This document shows positions 12,214-31,407 of a stretch of 34,563 nt of DNA, one piece after another. The stretch lies in NCBI GenBank assembly GCA_021828295.1, contig JAKASF010000010.1:1-34563 (forward strand). The letters are read 5' to 3'. Under the pieces are notes generated by a model. That model did no database searches. It worked only from the letters and a program-made list of their open reading frames with translations, and was not told the DNA's origin. Made by a program: the position numbers and the translations under genes. Within the stretch, counting starts at the first letter, position 1. The number at the start of each line of letters is the position of its first letter. Origin of the DNA: Microcaldota archaeon. Its GTDB lineage: Archaea > Micrarchaeota > Micrarchaeia > Micrarchaeales > CABMGC01.

Positions 12214-12846
12214 TTGGTCAGATTCACCTATAACTCAAACGCGATAGAAGGTAACAGGCTTACACTAAGGCAGACCGCACTTGTGCTTGCTGAAGGCATC
12301 GCCCCTGAGGGAACGCGAGCAAACGACATAATAGAGGCATTTAACTCCAAAGATGCGTGGGAATACGTAAAAGCGCGCCACGGAGGTCTTACAGATAAGT
12401 TTATCCGCAAACTGCAGTATGAGGTAACTAAGAACACACAAATGCGTTTGCAAGGAAAATACAGGGACGGTCGGGTGCGAATAAGTGGTTCAGGTTGGAT
12501 TCCGCCAGAAGCCGACAAAGTGCCGGTCCTGATTAAAGGAACACTAGCGAAATACAAAAGCGAAAAGACAGCCTCCCACCCCGTGGAGCTCGCTTCATGG
12601 TTGCACAACAAATTTGTGCAGATACATCCTTTCACAGATGGAAATGGCAGAACAGCAAGATTTTTGATGAACTGGATACTACTTAGAAACAAGTTCCCGC
12701 CAGTTGTCATCGAAGTGAGCAACAAGGAAAAGTACTACAAAATGATAGAAGAGGCGGACAAAGGAAACGAAAAGTTATTTGCAGAATTCCTGGCTGAGGA
12801 ACTGCTGAAGCAGTATACTTCAGAAATCACGCCAGAACCAAAATGA
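12214..12846 (+). CDS. Fic-domain protein, N-terminally short
   Basis: Fic enzymes usually transfer AMP from ATP to protein hydroxyls. The active-site loop is exact: HPFTDGNGRTAR at residues 138-149. The N-terminal inhibitory motif is SNAIEGN at 8-14, with E12 as the expected blocking Glu, so the protein should be self-inhibited. Archaeal relatives that share the FTYNSNAIEG region normally carry about 100 more residues before it. Here the frame is closed by TGA at 12181, has no ATG or GTG, and the only start is TTG 12214 (AAAGGA 4 nt before). The open frame upstream of the TTG still reads ALPKDF, which continues the family pattern. The gene is therefore either 5'-truncated or a minimal form. 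It lies in an AT-rich island. Confidence 0.75.
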   Translation: MVRFTYNSNAIEGNRLTLRQTALVLAEGIAPEGTRANDIIEAFNSKDAWEYVKARHGGLTDKFIRKLQYEVTKNTQMRLQGKYRDGRVRISGSGWIPPEADKVPVLIKGTLAKYKSEKTASHPVELASWLHNKFVQIHPFTDGNGRTARFLMNWILLRNKFPPVVIEVSNKEKYYKMIEEADKGNEKLFAEFLAEELLKQYTSEITPEPK

Positions 12847-19123: not shown

Positions 19124-19534
19124 ATGCCGGCAAGAAAGCTAAGCAATCGTCTCTCGCTTGCGAGGATAGCAATAGTAGTAGTGGGCCTGCTCTCTTCCGT
19201 GTACCTGGCCTACTCCGCGACATTCAACGTTCCGGTGGCCTGCCCAACCACGCAGCTGATAAACTGCGACGCAGTACTGGGCAGCGCGTACGCCAACACG
19301 TTCGGGGTGCCGAACGGCTACCTTGGAATAGCATTCTTTCTTGCGGTCCTAGCGCTCATCTACCTGAAGAAGCCGGAGCCGCTGGCGCTGCTCAACGCCG
19401 CTGGCATAGCGTTCGTCGCCTACTTCATCTACGCCGAGTACAGAATAGGGAGCATCTGCCTCTACTGCACGCTTGTGCACGTATGCACGCTCGCACTGCT
19501 GGCCATCTCGCTCTATGAGATATCTGGAAGCTAG
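19124..19534 (+). CDS. Vitamin K epoxide reductase (VKOR) family protein
   Basis: The 136-residue protein has four membrane helices and the VKOR residues: C40 and C48 in the first loop (VACPTTQLINCDAV) and the CXXC C112-C115 (ICLYCT) at the start of the last helix. VKOR passes electrons from a thioredoxin-like partner to a quinone and so drives disulfide formation outside the membrane. It follows the thioredoxin-fold gene by 4 bp and must be co-transcribed. The 3' end overlaps the convergent glycosyltransferase by 4 nt. The pair is the natural source of disulfides for the Cys-containing surface proteins at 29-31 kb. Confidence 0.9.
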   Translation: MPARKLSNRLSLARIAIVVVGLLSSVYLAYSATFNVPVACPTTQLINCDAVLGSAYANTFGVPNGYLGIAFFLAVLALIYLKKPEPLALLNAAGIAFVAYFIYAEYRIGSICLYCTLVHVCTLALLAISLYEISGS

Positions 19535-23282: not shown

Positions 23283-25601
23283 ATGCGATTCGGTCCGCAT
23301 CTAGCATTATTACTTATAGTGTTCTCCCTATTCGGGATTGTGAACTCAAGCTCCAACACCATAGGCGCAAATGTAGTCGTTGTCGGCGCGAACGTTTTCA
23401 TAAGCGGATTCACTGTCTCTGCATCCTCTGTGACTCCGGGCTCTCCGCTCACGTTCAACGCGCAGCTCACCAACGACGGGCCGCTCGCTACAGGCAACAT
23501 AATCATAAACCTGTCCGTATCGGGGCCCTCTCCCTTTACTTACATATACACCAACACGCCGCTCGCGAGCGGCGGATCTACCGCGTTCGCATACACGACA
23601 AGCAACGCTGCGCTCAGCTCCGGCGACTATACCGCAAGCCTCAGCGCCAACTACATAACGGCTGGCGGCACCGTGGTGCAGGGGACTAACACACAGAAGG
23701 CTACATACACAGTCACCGGAGGCGGAGGGGGAGGCGGCGGTGGTGGAGGCGGTGGCGGCGGCGGTGCCGGAGGCGGAGGCACGCCATCGTCTCCGCTCAA
23801 CGTCAAGATCGGCCTGGCGCCCGCGGCGAGCTACACGATAAACTACGCTGGAACGCAGATGGCCATAGTGGTCTCAAATCCTGGTTCCGTATACATCAAC
23901 GGCTCGGTCAAGCTGCTCAACTGGACCTGCTGCTCCCTTCCCCCTCTCGTGGGCTACAAGAAGCTGCAGGCTACAAACATTAGCGTCAACGCAACAGGAG
24001 TGGTGCTGCTCAACATAACGGCCAAGTACCCGTGCACGCTGCCATCCAGCGCAGTCGCCCCTTACAAGCTCGTGAACCTCACGTGGCAGCCGATAACGCC
24101 GTTCACAGTCGACGCCGCGTCGTGCAGCGTAAGCTTCTCGCTCTACAGCAACGACCCGATGGTTGCCATACTGAGCACGCTGGCGCCGCCTCCGGTGATC
24201 ACACCGGTGCAGCAGATCTCAATAACATCCATACCGCTCTTCGTCTCGCTCTACGAGGGCGGGACCTCGCTCTCCAGCATAGGGCTCAAGAACACTGGCG
24301 GCGCGCCGACGACGCTTAGGCTTACCATACCTGCAGCTTATGCAGCATATGCAACGGTATCTAGCACAAACGTCACGATAAACCCAGGCCAGGCAATCAA
24401 CGTGAACATGGTATTCAACGCGCCCAAGAACGCGACGCTCGGCACCTACATCATACCAGTGATCCTCTCGGTCATGAACAGCGGCGGCACCACCAACCAG
24501 ACGGAGTACATCTCCTCAACAATCTACGCCAGGAACGCGGACCAGCCGCAGGTCGTGGACCAGATCAGCATAGTCAACAACACGCAGCAGGTGAGCGGCA
24601 TACTCCAGATAGGCGCGCCGCAGAACCAGAACCTCACCAACGTCAACGTAAAGACGATACTGCCGCCGGGCATAGTCAACAGCACCTCGCAGATCACGAC
24701 ATTCGGAGTGGCTAACAACGTGAGCATAAGCAACGGCACCGTGGTGATAGCATGGAACGTGGGTTTCATACCGGCCGACCAGTCCGTATACGGCTACTAC
24801 ACGATAAACAGGCCGATCAGCCAGTTCCCCCTCAAGTACATACAGACAGTGCTAGTGGCCCCGTCGCAGATAACCGCTGAGCAGGTACTCAGGATAGTAA
24901 GCCTGGACCTGCCGAGCCCCTACGCGGGAACAGCCTCGACAGCTGGAGTCAGCATACTCTACACCGACTCCGTGCCAACGCAGATGACTGTGTCGCTCAC
25001 GGGACCGAGCACCGCTCACGTAAACGTACCGGCGCGGACGTTCAACGTCACGCCAAACGAGCTCGTCGCCACCAACTTCACAATAGAGGACAACAACCCT
25101 GGCACGGATCTCTTCACGCTGCGCATCTCGGCCGGCAACCTGAACGTGACGCAGCAGGTGCCCATAGTAATACTGCCGGCGCAGGTGGCCTTCGGGGCGC
25201 TTGGTACCTATGCCGTGCTCGCCGTCCTCGCGCTCGCATTTATAATAATTATCTTCTTTATAATCACGAGATTGGCTCCGTCGCTGCGCAACCTGCCGAA
25301 GAGCGGTGCAGAGGAGCTGGAGCGCATAGGAGGCGCTCTTGAGAAAGGCGTAGGGGGAGGAGCCGCACAGGAAGAGGCGCGGCGCGAGGGCGTTGAAGAG
25401 AGACGCGCTGGCTCGCTCTCGAGGATAAAGGAGCTCATCGGAAAAGAGTACAAGGAAAGAAAGGAGAAGCGCAAAGCAAAGAAGAGAGAGGAGACGGAGA
25501 GGAAGGAACGCGAGAGGCCAAGGAAGCCGGAAGAAGGACCGCTTCCAGACAGGCGCTCGCGGCTCAGCAAGATCCGGGACAGGCTCAAGGGAGCGAGATA
25601 G
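23283..25601 (+). CDS. Large surface protein with glycine linker, anchor and charged cytoplasmic tail
   Basis: The 772-residue protein starts with a signal peptide (about 1-22). Residues 35-143 look like a CARDB/Ig-like beta domain (SASSVTPGSPLTFNAQLTND). A 21-residue glycine linker follows (146-166, one Ala), coded by mixed Gly codons and so not a simple DNA repeat. Residues 170-630 are further beta-rich domains with many N-X-S/T sites. One membrane helix (about 635-663) is followed by a 105-residue cytoplasmic tail dominated by Lys, Arg and Glu, probably a helical stalk. Exported domain outside, long charged tail inside, and a MinD/ParA ATPase gene 15 bp downstream suggest that the tail meets the ATPase. 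No family is recognised for the whole. Confidence 0.8.
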   Translation: MRFGPHLALLLIVFSLFGIVNSSSNTIGANVVVVGANVFISGFTVSASSVTPGSPLTFNAQLTNDGPLATGNIIINLSVSGPSPFTYIYTNTPLASGGSTAFAYTTSNAALSSGDYTASLSANYITAGGTVVQGTNTQKATYTVTGGGGGGGGGGGGGGGGAGGGGTPSSPLNVKIGLAPAASYTINYAGTQMAIVVSNPGSVYINGSVKLLNWTCCSLPPLVGYKKLQATNISVNATGVVLLNITAKYPCTLPSSAVAPYKLVNLTWQPITPFTVDAASCSVSFSLYSNDPMVAILSTLAPPPVITPVQQISITSIPLFVSLYEGGTSLSSIGLKNTGGAPTTLRLTIPAAYAAYATVSSTNVTINPGQAINVNMVFNAPKNATLGTYIIPVILSVMNSGGTTNQTEYISSTIYARNADQPQVVDQISIVNNTQQVSGILQIGAPQNQNLTNVNVKTILPPGIVNSTSQITTFGVANNVSISNGTVVIAWNVGFIPADQSVYGYYTINRPISQFPLKYIQTVLVAPSQITAEQVLRIVSLDLPSPYAGTASTAGVSILYTDSVPTQMTVSLTGPSTAHVNVPARTFNVTPNELVATNFTIEDNNPGTDLFTLRISAGNLNVTQQVPIVILPAQVAFGALGTYAVLAVLALAFIIIIFFIITRLAPSLRNLPKSGAEELERIGGALEKGVGGGAAQEEARREGVEERRAGSLSRIKELIGKEYKERKEKRKAKKREETERKERERPRKPEEGPLPDRRSRLSKIRDRLKGAR

Positions 25602-25616: not shown

Positions 25617-26354
25617 ATGGGAAAGCCGCTGATCATAGGAGTGATAAGCCAGAAAGGAGGAGTAGGGAAGACGACAGTGGCGGTCAACCTGGCAGTCGCG
25701 CTGCGCATGCGCGACTACAAAGTCTTGCTCATAGACGGCGACACCAGCAATCCCAGCATAGGGATAGACCTCGGCATGGAGGACGAGAACAGGGGCTACA
25801 AGGAGCTTGTGGCGACGAACGCTCCTCTCGACAAGCTCGCTTCGATACACGGGGCCAGCGGGCTGCACGTGATAACGGGCACGCTCCACACGCGGCCTTT
25901 CATACCGCTGAGGTCGCAGGTCAGCAGGCTGGAGAAGAAGCTGAGGAAGAGCTCCTACGACTTCATAGTCATAGACTCGCCGCCCGGATATCACAACGAC
26001 GACGAGTTCGGATTCTGGGACGAGGCCGTGATTGTATCGACGCCTGACATGCCGGCTATAACCGCGTGCCTGAGGCTGGAGCAGACGCTGAGCAAGGCCA
26101 AGGTGAAGCACAGCCTAGTGCTGAACATGGTGCGCGGCAGGAGGTACGAGCTGAGGCAGGACGAGATACAGGACGCGTTCAGCTGCAAGATCGCGGGCGT
26201 GCTGCCTGCTGACGACGCGGTCAACTCCGCGCTCGCCGAGCGCATACCTGTCTTCCTCTCCAACAAGGGCGCGTCGTTCTCCAAGGCGATGGGCAGGCTG
26301 AGCAGCAGGTACGGAAAGGGCACCGGCATAAGCAGGATATTCAGGGTAAAGTAA
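25617..26354 (+). CDS. MinD/ParA-type P-loop ATPase
   Basis: The 245-residue protein has the deviant Walker A motif KGGVGKTT (13-20) with both Lys13 and Lys18, the switch region LLIDGDTSNPS (38-47) and DFIVIDSPPG around residue 118. These place it in the MinD/ParA/ArsA group, which dimerises on ATP and positions proteins, plasmids or surface machines. No clear membrane-targeting helix is seen at the C-terminus, which is basic (GISRIFRVK). It follows the large surface protein by 15 bp with AGGAG before its ATG, so the two are one operon. It could position the surface protein or regulate its assembly; that is inference. Confidence 0.88.
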   Translation: MGKPLIIGVISQKGGVGKTTVAVNLAVALRMRDYKVLLIDGDTSNPSIGIDLGMEDENRGYKELVATNAPLDKLASIHGASGLHVITGTLHTRPFIPLRSQVSRLEKKLRKSSYDFIVIDSPPGYHNDDEFGFWDEAVIVSTPDMPAITACLRLEQTLSKAKVKHSLVLNMVRGRRYELRQDEIQDAFSCKIAGVLPADDAVNSALAERIPVFLSNKGASFSKAMGRLSSRYGKGTGISRIFRVK

Positions 26355-26387: not shown

Positions 26388-26408
26388 CTTTTCGTGCAAA
26401 AAGAAAGC

Positions 26409-29400
26409 ATGCAAAGGCAGGAACAGCTAGCACTACTCATAGCCATGACGCTCTCGCTTCTCTTCTCGGTATCTTTCGCGAGCGGCAGCACGTCGCTCTC
26501 ATCTTCATCCACCACCTCGGTCCCGATCTCTAACTCCACATCCCTCTCAACCTCCATCTCATCTTCTTCATCGCTCTCAACAACCAGCGTGGCTCCGCTC
26601 TCCCTGGTCTCTGTTTACGTCTCGAACTCGCAGCCCATGCAGGGGCAGAGCGAAACGCTGACGGCCACGATATCCGGAGGCGTACCCCCGTATCTTTATG
26701 CCTTTATCGCAAGGAACTCGCTGAATAGCGGCCGCGTTGCTGCCGGCAACGCCTCCAGCGCCCTGGATAACTACTCCTTCCCGTTCCTGCTGCCTGTTTC
26801 GGCCAACGACACCGGCATGATACGCATAAACGTAAGCATCGCCGACTCTGCCAACTCTGTTGTTAACGGGTGGAACAGCATAACAGTCTCGCCGCAGCAG
26901 GTGTCCAGCTCCACCAGCACTGTGTCGCAGTCGTCGTCCACCACTGCAGCAGCTACATCTTACTCAACAACTGTCTCTACGACGCTCAGCACGAGCGTCA
27001 CCACAACGGTCGCGCAGGCATTCAACGACAGCGAAGTGTACTCGCTGGTGTCGAGCTACGGCTCCAACGTGATAACAAACGCAAGCTCGGCGCAGTTCAA
27101 TTCAACGACAGCGCTAAACCTAGGGCAGCTCAACCAGATAACGCCGAAGCTGCTGGCAATCGGGGCGAACATCAACCACCTGCAGGCGAACGTGAGCTAT
27201 GGATCGCTGGCGCAGGGGGGCAGGGTAATCGGCGCTGGCAAGACCTTCTACTACATAGCTTATAACGGAAACGGCAGCGTCGCAGAGTACACAGTCAACG
27301 TGAACAAGAAGGTTCCGGACCTGCACGTGCGAATAGGCAACTTCACAAGCAACTCGACCATGGGCAACGTAACGCTGCTGCAATCCTCATACAGCAGGAT
27401 AGGCAACAAGCTCTACCCGCAGAGCACATATTCGATAAACCCGCAGCTCTTCAGCGCTGTGCAGGGCAACAACACGCTCAACTATACATACTCTATATAC
27501 GTGGGCGGAAACCTCAAGGCTTTCGGCTCATCTTCCGGCAGCTCGATCAGCAAGGGGTTCAGCTTCGGCAGCATACCCATAAACCAGCCTACGAAGATAG
27601 TGTTCGACGCGCAGGGCAACAGCAACTATTCGTCCATCGACCCTACAGTGTACGTGTTCTTCTCATCTGGCAACGCCGCGGTAACCATATCAACAGCGAC
27701 GACGCTCACCGGAGACCTTGTGTGCGGCACCCTGACAGTGAACAGCGGCCAGACGCTCACCACAGCAGGATACAGCATACTCTGCAACAGCACGATAACC
27801 AACAGCGGCACGATATCCTCAGGAGGGACTACAAACAACCCCGCCAATGGCGGCCCAACCGGCACAGTAGGAGGCAGCGCATCAAGCTCATACGGAGGCT
27901 CTGGAGGGGGAGGGGGCGGATATAACAACGTAGGAGGCAACGGAGGCACGCCGACATCACCAACGGTCAACAACGCGAACATACAGACGTGGTATGGCAC
28001 AGGAGGCCTAGCAATTCAGACATATTTCGAGGGCGCTGGGGGGGGCGGCTCAGCTGACGTGGCCGGGGGCAGCGGAAGCTATGGCGTTTACATGCAAGCA
28101 AGCAAGGTGGTTGAGGGAACAGTCACCGCCACAGGGGTGGCTGGAACCGTTGACACCAGAACCACAAAGACAGCAGGCCAGAATGGCGGAAGCACCTCTG
28201 GAACTGCGGGAGGCACCGGAGGCGCGGCGAGCGGCCACGGAGCCGGGACCAGCGCATGTGGCGGTGGGGGAGGCGGAGCGATAATACTTGCGGCGTACGG
28301 CTCTGGCGGCTTCACTACAGGCACCACGACAGTGACAGGGGGCAGCGGCACCGGATGCACCGAGACTGGAGGCACAGGAGGCTCGGGGAGGCCGCTGAGC
28401 TTCAGCTACGGCACCAGCGCGCCGATAGTGGTCCTGGCGCAGCTCAAGATCTCGCCTGCGACAATAGGCAGCGCCATACTCGACGTGGGCCAGAGCTACA
28501 CGTTCAGCACAACTGCGAGCAACGGGCTGGCGCCGTATACCGGCAACTGGCAGTGGATAGCCCCGAATACCGTCTCGCCCACTAACACGATAAACGCGGC
28601 TCTGCCTACAGCTACGAACGCGCTCGCGCTTACGATAAACCCCAAATCCAATACCGATCTGGGCTATACGTGGAGCAGCGTCAACTACGACCTTGTCCCG
28701 TCTGGAGGCGCTGACATAGAGGGCGTGTGGGCTTTCAACGGCTTCGTGGTGGACAACGGCCTTGACCAGTCAGCGGCAAACACTGTCAACACCGCCAACA
28801 CGCCAGTGATAAGCATAAACTCCATGCCCGCGGCCACGCTCAGCCCAAGCTCTGGGACAATAGCCAGCGGACAGGTTGAGACGTACACAATAACAGTGAA
28901 CGGCGGCACCGGGAAGTACACGGCAGAGCTCTACAACGTAACGGGGGCCAAGCAGGCGTGCGCCGACGGCCAGAGCGCGCCGTGCAACGTGATCATCTTC
29001 ACGCCTGGCGGCACTAACACGATAGCTTTCACTGCAGGAACATCGGCTGGCTCGTTCACTTACAACACAATAGTGACAGACCAGGGCACCACCAACCCAT
29101 TCACTTTCAATTCTGTGTCGAGCACGATAACTGTCTCAACGGCCACATGCCAGCCCATAGTCTCGAACAGCCTTGTCAACTTCGGCACTGTCGTGCCTGG
29201 CAGCTTCGCGCCTACGGCCAACGCTGTCAACATAAAGGACTCTGGGACTAGCGCAGCTAATGTTGTGCTCTACTCCGTAAGCACAACGACAGGAAACTGG
29301 GTCTACCTCTCGAACAGCTTCCTCACCTCTAACACTGTATGGGACGGGAGCCTCCACGCGAGCTCCATATCAGGAAATCAGCTCACCAACTCGATAACCA

Positions 29401-29525
29401 CAGACACGAAGATAAACGTGGCCACGAGCGGCTCTGGAAACACGCTCTACTTCGGGGTAAACGTGCCCAAGGGGCAGCAGCCAGGAACGTATACGCAGGG
29501 CGTGACCGTCACCTTCAGCTGCTGA
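26409..29525 (+). CDS. Giant Ser/Thr- and Gly-rich secreted protein with C-terminal Cys-capped domain
   Basis: The 1038-residue protein has a signal peptide (about 1-25), two Ser/Thr-rich stretches (about 25-65 and 162-204, likely O-glycosylated), and Ig/PKD-like repeats starting GGVPPYLYAF. A Gly-rich region (about 472-664) recalls adhesin or beta-solenoid repeats. Another Ig-like block follows (NGLAPYTGNWQW, then GGTGKYTAELYNV). The last domain runs from C914 to C1038, the final residue. The same domain ends both small proteins downstream, the second with long DNA identity. No membrane anchor or sortase signal follows. It is probably a surface layer or adhesion component held by the small anchored partners. 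The ATG at 26409 fits the TATA spacing. Confidence 0.8.
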   Translation: MQRQEQLALLIAMTLSLLFSVSFASGSTSLSSSSTTSVPISNSTSLSTSISSSSSLSTTSVAPLSLVSVYVSNSQPMQGQSETLTATISGGVPPYLYAFIARNSLNSGRVAAGNASSALDNYSFPFLLPVSANDTGMIRINVSIADSANSVVNGWNSITVSPQQVSSSTSTVSQSSSTTAAATSYSTTVSTTLSTSVTTTVAQAFNDSEVYSLVSSYGSNVITNASSAQFNSTTALNLGQLNQITPKLLAIGANINHLQANVSYGSLAQGGRVIGAGKTFYYIAYNGNGSVAEYTVNVNKKVPDLHVRIGNFTSNSTMGNVTLLQSSYSRIGNKLYPQSTYSINPQLFSAVQGNNTLNYTYSIYVGGNLKAFGSSSGSSISKGFSFGSIPINQPTKIVFDAQGNSNYSSIDPTVYVFFSSGNAAVTISTATTLTGDLVCGTLTVNSGQTLTTAGYSILCNSTITNSGTISSGGTTNNPANGGPTGTVGGSASSSYGGSGGGGGGYNNVGGNGGTPTSPTVNNANIQTWYGTGGLAIQTYFEGAGGGGSADVAGGSGSYGVYMQASKVVEGTVTATGVAGTVDTRTTKTAGQNGGSTSGTAGGTGGAASGHGAGTSACGGGGGGAIILAAYGSGGFTTGTTTVTGGSGTGCTETGGTGGSGRPLSFSYGTSAPIVVLAQLKISPATIGSAILDVGQSYTFSTTASNGLAPYTGNWQWIAPNTVSPTNTINAALPTATNALALTINPKSNTDLGYTWSSVNYDLVPSGGADIEGVWAFNGFVVDNGLDQSAANTVNTANTPVISINSMPAATLSPSSGTIASGQVETYTITVNGGTGKYTAELYNVTGAKQACADGQSAPCNVIIFTPGGTNTIAFTAGTSAGSFTYNTIVTDQGTTNPFTFNSVSSTITVSTATCQPIVSNSLVNFGTVVPGSFAPTANAVNIKDSGTSAANVVLYSVSTTTGNWVYLSNSFLTSNTVWDGSLHASSISGNQLTNSITTDTKINVATSGSGNTLYFGVNVPKGQQPGTYTQGVTVTFSC

Positions 29526-29586
29526 CGGATGCGGAGCGTGCGCAAGCATATGGTTGCATACGGCGCTATGCCGCTAATGGCATTGG

Positions 29587-29594
29587 TTTAAATA
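29587..29594 (+). promoter_or_regulatory. TATA box of the small Cys-capped protein operon
   Basis: TTTAAATA lies about 47 bp before ATG 29637 and would drive the three overlapping or closely spaced genes to 31407. The predicted leader of about 20 nt contains an out-of-frame ATG at 29626 with a 10-codon frame. Confidence 0.5.
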
Positions 29595-29636
29595 CCTTGG
29601 TGTGCACATCTAAACCAGAAACCAGATGGCGACGAC

Positions 29637-30158
29637 ATGGGAAATAACTGGGGAGTAGTGTACTCTTCGCTGGCCTTCGCTGCAGTTGCTCTACTCGTAG
29701 TCATGGCCGCTTCGTTCATGCTCTCGCAGGTCAGCGTCATCTACGCAAGCTCGAACAACATAGGCGAGAACGTAGTCGTACCACTAACGTGCATACCGCT
29801 CGCAAGCAACACAGCCATATACATGCCTTCAATACCTGCGGGCAGCTCACAGGCCACATCCAACGTAGTCACAGTGACCAACTACGGCAACGAGCCCAGC
29901 AACATCTTCGTAGACGGAGGCAACCCGACCTATCTCTCGAATGTGATATGGGTATCGAACATAGTGTGGAATGACGCTTATCAGGCATCCGGAGCCCCTG
30001 TAGGCAATCAGCTCGCCAACTCCATCACAGGCGCAGACACGCAGCTCACCGCGTCCTCTAACGGAGGCACGGCCACGGTGTACTTTGGAACCAACGTTCC
30101 TGCCACGTCGCAGCCTGGAACTTATACTTCTACAATAAACGTGATGCTATCATGTTGA
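29637..30158 (+). CDS. Small anchored Cys-capped domain protein
   Basis: The 173-residue protein has one N-terminal hydrophobic helix (about 9-31), preceded by only a few uncharged residues, and then a beta-rich domain from C52 to C173, the last residue. It shares with the two neighbours the pattern Cys, a VTNYG/VNIKDSG turn, a YLSN..W stretch, NQL.NSIT, a TVYFG.N strand and PGTYT near the end. The N-terminal helix may be an uncleaved anchor or a pilin-like assembly helix; I see no clear class III cleavage site. Its stop overlaps the next gene by 7 nt. It is the most divergent of the three. Confidence 0.75.
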   Translation: MGNNWGVVYSSLAFAAVALLVVMAASFMLSQVSVIYASSNNIGENVVVPLTCIPLASNTAIYMPSIPAGSSQATSNVVTVTNYGNEPSNIFVDGGNPTYLSNVIWVSNIVWNDAYQASGAPVGNQLANSITGADTQLTASSNGGTATVYFGTNVPATSQPGTYTSTINVMLSC

Positions 30159-30712
30159 GCACAACCAACAACAAGGCCTCGCGGGCACGCGCCGCAAAGT
30201 CAGCCTTTGCGTTCGCGCTCGTTGTTGCCTCGATGGTTGTCGCGATGCTAGCTTTGTTCACACAGATAGGGCTCGTGACAGCGGTAACAAACACAGTCAA
30301 CGGCATAGCGCTCAGCATCCAGGTGCAGGGAGTGTGCAACCCCATACTGTCCAACACGCTGGTCAACTTCGGAAGCGTACAGCCCGGAAGCTTCGCACCA
30401 ACGGCCAACGCTGTCAACATCCAGGATTCCGGATCCGTAGCTTCAAACATAGTACTCTACTCGACAAGCACAACGACAGGAAACTGGGTCTACCTCTCGA
30501 ACAGCTTCCTCGTGTCTAACACAGTCTGGGATGTAAGGTACCACTCTGGTGCCATAGTAGGCAACCAGCTAACGAACTCGATAACCACAGACACGAAGAT
30601 AAACGTGGCCACGAGCGGCTCTGGAAACACGCTCTACTTCGGGGTCAACATACCCGCAGGTCAGGCACCAGGAACATACACTCAGGGCATAACCGTAGAG
30701 TTTAGCTGCTAA
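30152..30712 (+). CDS. Small anchored Cys-capped domain protein, near copy of the giant protein's C-terminus
   Basis: The 186-residue protein has a basic N-terminus (NKASRARAAK), a hydrophobic helix (about 18-40) and a domain from C62 to C186, the last residue. That domain is 125 residues Cys to Cys, exactly as in the giant protein, and is nearly identical to it; two DNA blocks of 46 and 71 bp are the same in both genes. The basic residues before a hydrophobic helix resemble pilin-type leaders. It starts 7 nt inside the previous gene, and the next gene begins 6 bp after its stop, so three genes are coupled. A structural role in a surface fibre or layer is inferred. Confidence 0.78.
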   Translation: MLSTTNNKASRARAAKSAFAFALVVASMVVAMLALFTQIGLVTAVTNTVNGIALSIQVQGVCNPILSNTLVNFGSVQPGSFAPTANAVNIQDSGSVASNIVLYSTSTTTGNWVYLSNSFLVSNTVWDVRYHSGAIVGNQLTNSITTDTKINVATSGSGNTLYFGVNIPAGQAPGTYTQGITVEFSC

Positions 30713-30717
30713 GGCGA

Positions 30718-31407
30718 GTGGGCATACTGGGTTTGGTTTACGTGGAACACACGCGTCTAGGTTTCATTCTGCTCTCATTCTTAATCGCAGTCTCGATGGC
30801 CAGCGTGGCGCAGGCCTGCATCGGGGAGGTAGCCGGAAAGATCGGCTTCAACGTAAGCGCGGGATCCAGCGAGACGCTCCAGATGCAGATATTCAACAGC
30901 TGCGCGAACCAGACCATACAGTTTGCGACGATAAGCCAGGTCAACCCTGTAGTCAACGCCACCAGCCCGACAATAGTGATGTCGCCAAAGAACGGGACCT
31001 TGGATCCCAGGGTGAACACTTACATAAACATAACTGTCACGATGCCGGCCAACGCCGTGGTGGGCACGGTGTGGAGCGCGGGCGCCGCAGCTGATGAGGT
31101 CGTGAGCAACAACACCAACGGCCAGGGAGGCGCTATACTCAACGTTGGCGTGATCAAGCTGTTCAACATAACCGCGCTACCGGCCAAGCCGATACCTCTC
31201 ATTGACATAATAATCGGAGCCGCTGCAGTTGTCGCCGCCGGTGCTGCAGGCGGCAGCCTCTACTACTTCAGGGTTATGAAGAAGGGAGCCAAGAAGCCTG
31301 CGAGGGCGGCAAAGAAGGCGCCGAGGAAGAGGGCGACCAGAAAGAGGCCGGCCAAGAGGACTTCGCGCAGCGCCAAGAAGAGAACGACGAGGCGCAGGAG
31401 AAGGTAG
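30718..31407 (+). CDS. Membrane protein with histone-H1-like basic cytoplasmic tail
   Basis: The 229-residue protein has a signal peptide ending near AQAC (C34), an Ig-like outer domain with a second Cys at 62 and several N-X-S/T sites, a membrane helix (160-183), and a 45-residue tail (185-229). The tail has 25 Lys or Arg, no acidic residue, and Ala/Pro-rich repeats like histone H1 or archaeal DNA-binding tails, ending in five Arg. With the N-terminus outside, the tail is cytoplasmic and could bind DNA, RNA or acidic proteins. The start is GTG 30718, 6 bp after the previous stop; GTG 30739 would leave a tighter signal peptide. Function unknown. Confidence 0.75.
   Translation: MGILGLVYVEHTRLGFILLSFLIAVSMASVAQACIGEVAGKIGFNVSAGSSETLQMQIFNSCANQTIQFATISQVNPVVNATSPTIVMSPKNGTLDPRVNTYINITVTMPANAVVGTVWSAGAAADEVVSNNTNGQGGAILNVGVIKLFNITALPAKPIPLIDIIIGAAAVVAAGAAGGSLYYFRVMKKGAKKPARAAKKAPRKRATRKRPAKRTSRSAKKRTTRRRRR

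Follow-up and report, generated by a model that had tools for sequence, protein, structure and literature searches.

A stretch of 34,563 nt from a Microcaldota archaeon (contig JAKASF010000010.1; hereafter, the window) encodes a giant secreted protein (A) followed by two small proteins (B and C). This locus raises the question of why proteins of such different sizes end in the same domain and what they might build together. All three close with one Cys-bounded domain, as a preliminary description of this DNA had reported: it extends from C919 to C1043 in A, from C52 to C173 in B and from C62 to C186 in C. The Cys-to-Cys lengths given there (125, 122 and 125 residues, respectively) were recovered, and the last residue is Cys in each protein (the Cys of the giant correspond to C914 and C1038 when translation starts five codons later). 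The domain of A presents 75% identity to protein C (E = 5e-66) and 40% identity to protein B (E = 8e-21), which excludes a chance likeness. These three copies are the only ones found in their own genome. We consider it rather probable that the cluster encodes a surface fiber or adhesin, which would be held together by donor-strand complementation of this domain, an incomplete Ig-like domain of the pilin type.

The genes of A, B and C are preceded by those of proteins D and P and followed by that of protein E (Table 1). The spacings are 15 bases between D and P, 39 between P and A, 111 between A and B and 5 between C and E, and the reading frames of B and C overlap by 7 bases at the end of B. 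The usual order in relatives is D, P and A, then one to three small proteins or one two-domain protein, and then E. In Ca. Micrarchaeum A_DKE, we identified two clusters of the D/P/giant/small/E type, and one operon of this genome carries a giant without an adjoining small protein, which indicates that a long fiber is not obligatory. The segment that follows the cluster in A_DKE (a helicase-like gene and the next genes) was duplicated together with it (858658-863196 and 872922-877782). The window also encodes a Fic/DOC family protein (12214-12846).

Table 1. Features of the cluster and of the candidate accessory gene in the window, with proposed roles.
Feature	Description and proposed role	Position	Strand	Basis or remark
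D	772 aa, secreted/membrane protein; signal peptide and donor-strand-like N-terminus; proposed donor-only cell anchor	23283..25601	+	
D, further parts	CARDB/NEW3-like Ig domains, C-terminal TM, basic tail			Family alignment
Donor-strand-like segment of D	SSSNTIGANVVVV	23346..23384	+	Motif-matrix score
P	MinD/ParA-type ATPase; proposed positioning factor	25617..26354	+	Pfam CbiA/ParA/AAA_31 and gene order
A	1043 aa, giant and secreted; proposed tip or adhesin that only accepts a strand	26394..29525	+	
Pilin-like domain of A	C-terminus of A, C919 to C1043	29148..29522	+	Family profile
B	173 aa; signal peptide, donor segment, domain C52-C173	29637..30158	+	
Predicted donor strand of mature B	SSNNIGENVVVPLT	29748..29789	+	
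C	186 aa; signal peptide, donor segment, domain C62-C186	30152..30712	+	
Predicted donor strand of mature C	VTNTVNGIALSIQVQGV	30284..30334	+	Monomer model: no strand there
E	Signal peptide followed by a single Ig domain (ASH/PapD/WxLIP-like), a TM and a tail rich in Lys/Arg; candidate membrane partner or assembly chaperone	30718..31407	+	
VKOR-family membrane protein	Candidate disulfide-forming enzyme (function and cluster membership putative)	19124..19534	+	E 3e-21; CLYC and upstream Cys pair

We searched for the domain in related genomes. Within the family, one of the small proteins is matched in 34 of 79 genomes, and the domain profile is matched in 89 of the 295 Micrarchaeota genomes; across this phylum, the matches are strong in two families, both belonging to a single order, and weak in others. 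The named records all belong to Candidatus Micrarchaeota (some of them labelled Marsarchaeota) and include one complete genome, that of Ca. Micrarchaeum A_DKE. A single-sequence scan of genome contigs gave no match, and a closer subset of homologues was used for the contig scan of relatives. Profile searches with the domain against Pfam and PDB returned no family, no sequence-level match was obtained to any known pilin family and the giant A presented no Pfam hit. The complete giants range from 667 to 2188 aa. The arrangement of one giant with small proteins recurs in dozens of genomes, which agrees with the preliminary view of these proteins as a surface assembly.

Several variations of this arrangement were observed. 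In the tree, the domains of the giant and of a small protein of one genome (29148-29522 and 30335-30709 in the window) are often mutual closest relatives, as if they had been repeatedly duplicated or homogenized inside the locus. One giant (L034:12100-16443) is the sole one found with an internal domain: about 340 residues follow it, and the chain stops at the motif normally found ahead of the domain. Finally, A_DKE encodes a 5127-aa protein (256225-271608) whose N-terminus is pilin-like but of a different type, and which ends in a divergent copy of the domain (...DCA). The gene immediately downstream encodes a secreted protein of 992 aa, and a further member of the D family is encoded nearby (253546-255552).

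We then analyzed the N-termini of the small proteins, using simple hydropathy and site patterns to assess signal cleavage and membrane segments. The N-terminal hydrophobic stretch ends with a signal-peptidase-type site (Ala at position -1 in 60 of 67 proteins), and no second membrane segment was found in 78 of the 80 proteins. The small proteins had been described as membrane anchors; judged from their sequences, they look signal-peptide-cleaved rather than anchored. Most present 14-18 residues between the cleavage site and the first Cys, and the pattern S-x-N-V-x-A-x-V-x-V-x-x-x-C is conserved ahead of this Cys. At the sequence level, the predicted cleavage would leave a free N-terminal donor strand. 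To score this segment, we used a 13-column matrix trained on the small proteins, with A_DKE left out of the training. The median scores were 16.9 for small proteins (leave-out), 9.0 for the linkers of tandem domains and -15.5 for the giants (P = 2e-17), whose linkers are devoid of the donor motif. Among the 545 ORFs of A_DKE with a hydrophobic N-terminus, the small pilin ranked 1st and the three D proteins ranked 2nd, 4th and 6th. The N-terminus of D in the window scores 25.8, and the 99th percentile of these A_DKE ORFs is 9.7. The presence or absence of the motif defines three classes of proteins: acceptor-only (the giant), donor/acceptor (the small proteins) and donor-only (D). From these classes, we propose the order giant, small protein(s), D and membrane.

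The two flanking proteins are both predicted to be membrane-bound in relatives: a TM was found in D in 38 of 39 and in E in 56 of 56. D presents weak matches to CARDB and NPCBM_assoc, and the likeness of E to PapD and ASH is at the level of the fold only.

Structure prediction is consistent with an incomplete domain. The AlphaFold2 (AF2) model of protein C reached a pLDDT of 87, and the segment before C62 is not a strand in this model. When this monomer was compared to PDB with Foldseek, the top matches were mostly donor-strand pilins, none of them with E below 0.001: Csu (7zl4, E = 1.5e-3), TLP-1 (9ikk), type 1 (5oh0) and TasA (8aur), with the bundling pilus of P. calidifontis (7ueg) lower in the list. 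A natural two-domain relative (L091:8438-9418) was modeled with a pLDDT of 89. The strand before its second domain (192-198) is beta with a pLDDT of about 95, the equivalent segment before its first domain (about 38-53) is not beta, and the last strand counts 13 residues in domain 1 versus 6 in domain 2. This behavior, read from DSSP and pLDDT, is the signature expected if domain 1 were complemented in cis in the model. The tandem model yielded 69 Foldseek matches below 0.001 (best 5e-6), which include the CfaE-CfaB and CfaB-CfaB donor-strand fusions and self-complemented CsuA/B, as well as GH123, sialidase, RbmA and WxLIP (9i1y/9i25). The E-values of the Foldseek matches are modest, their TM-scores are low (0.3-0.5), in part because of the signal helix, and Ig-like proteins of other kinds match too. 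Together, the AlphaFold2 and Foldseek results point to an incomplete Ig fold resembling that of donor-strand pilins.

Computation yielded a conserved domain, a conserved gene order, a donor motif present or absent by class and a predicted fold, from which we propose the following assembly. The small proteins would be exported by Sec and their signal peptide cleaved, leaving a free N-terminal strand. Each mature small protein would give this strand to the groove of a neighbor and accept one itself, and the small proteins would be the links of a fiber of inferred length, each domain being clamped by a disulfide between its first and last strands. The giant would occupy the distal end since it accepts a strand but lacks one to donate. 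D would stand at the cell-side end since it possesses a donor-like strand and a C-terminal membrane helix but no pilin domain. The membrane-tethered Ig-domain protein E might be a partner in assembly or else a second anchor, and P may position the assembly. Strand insertion between proteins and the polarity of the fiber are both parts of this model, and adhesion to a host is suggested by the size of the giant, the surface location and the lifestyle.

The terminal Cys of the domain calls for an explanation of its own. In relatives, both Cys are kept in 130 of 139 full-length domains, neither is present in 8 and the terminal one alone is present in 1. Searching homologues by profile, as the preliminary description had proposed, showed that the last residue is Cys in 123 of the 124 proteins with a closed 3' end, relative to 156 of 3181 ORFs for the background. 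Of the eight domains that lack both Cys, seven occupy the first position of a tandem pair. The tree is compatible with a single loss, so the paired loss constitutes one piece of covariation rather than eight, and we dropped the idea of several independent losses. Antiparallel Ig topology places the beginning of the first strand at the same end of the fold as the terminus of the last one, beside the groove, and the two Cys are predicted to flank the acceptor groove. Because of this position and because a VKOR-family gene is found in the window, a staple joining the first and last strands is plausible. An intradomain disulfide is probably the best reading of the pair, and it would keep the incomplete fold rigid. 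The preliminary description had also considered that these Cys might join subunits, so that small and giant proteins would be linked covalently. Such links would agree with the near-invariance of the terminal Cys and with one protein (L055) that retains it in the absence of a partner in the domain. However, the pair is kept or lost within one domain (possibly in a single event), as expected for an in-domain pair, and the Ig topology brings both residues to the same end. The proposal of joined subunits was not borne out, and we regard inter-subunit disulfides as quite improbable.

Two other explanations concern the assembly as a whole. The domain might be a surface-binding module, complemented or held by E, on a platform where the giant bears binding domains and no polymer is formed. 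The WxL clusters of Firmicutes provide a precedent: according to PMC10599100, they combine a membrane protein bearing Ig domains with two proteins that share a domain, one small and made of this domain alone, the other large and carrying it at its C-terminus, and AF2 predicts strand insertion of a WxLIP into WxL. The initial statement that no described system has this layout was therefore wrong at the level of layout. E weakly resembles WxLIP: WxLIP_PGBD is matched by 4 of 26 E homologues (best 2.5e-5), and WxLIP structures are among the matches of the tandem model. We did not retain E as a WxLIP (PGBD+HBD+TM), since it is short with one Ig domain and few of its homologues match PGBD. Membership of the domain in WxL was rejected at the sequence level: the WxL Pfam model (PF13731) has 0 matches in the own genome at E <= 10, and WxL is absent from the families among the matches listed for domain members. 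WxL domains bind peptidoglycan which, to our knowledge, is not expected in archaea. A WxL-like platform also leaves unexplained the donor motifs of the small proteins and of D, and their absence from the giants. Overall, we find this explanation unlikely. Alternatively, the giant could be an S-layer protein or a part of the lattice, with the small proteins as its stalk or anchor. The giants are large and secreted, and Ca. Micrarchaeum harzensis possesses an S-layer whose anchoring is unknown (PMC8975820). However, no S-layer Pfam domain was found in the five giants that we scanned, a separate partial S_layer_C match is located on another contig of the own genome, the domain family is missing from many genomes of the phylum and the complete giants vary widely in length. 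These results led us to reject an S-layer identity of the MJ type (S_layer_N/C), and we consider an S-layer role very unlikely.

The donor-strand assembly that we favor can be compared to known systems. Like chaperone-usher pili (Csu, type 1 and CFA/I), it would combine a predicted incomplete Ig fold, an N-terminal donor strand on small subunits, an acceptor-only large tip protein and an inferred disulfide in the pilin domain. In contrast to these pili, the archaeal cell has a single membrane, and so no outer membrane for an usher; the archaeal Cys would join the start of the first strand to the last residue; and the cluster encodes a proposed donor-only TM base and a MinD/ParA protein. No sequence similarity to these pili was found. 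TasA and TasA-like filaments are also built of donor-strand Ig-like subunits, and two of them are among the top monomer matches, but their gene neighborhood differs and no TasA-type family was matched by sequence. The archaeal threads (Saci_0406/0405) and the bundling pili of P. calidifontis are likewise made of Sec-secreted subunits joined by a donor strand; the threads differ by proposed isopeptide bonds, and the available part of the source mentions no giant tip or TM donor base (PMC9715654). Similarly, a MinD protein and a donor-motif protein such as D are undescribed for WxL clusters in the available part of PMC10599100. A literature search of partial coverage returned no paper on donor strands in DPANN.

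We put forward a fuller scheme more tentatively, as possible rather than probable: a DPANN donor-strand adhesin system without usher for holding a host, with the giant as tip adhesin, small donor/acceptor links whose terminal Cys clamps the groove, a last donor strand provided from the membrane by D, a tethered Ig-domain chaperone and a MinD-type positioning ATPase. Donor-strand assembly is known from bacteria and some thermophilic archaea. If our reading is correct, it would also operate in a DPANN phylum, where the donor would be embedded in the membrane, and a C-terminal Cys would gain a clear role. The cluster is present in two copies in Ca. Micrarchaeum harzensis, which is cultivated, so that its predicted logic of tip, link and anchor designates concrete proteins for tests there and bears on the way in which DPANN archaea that depend on a host hold on to it.
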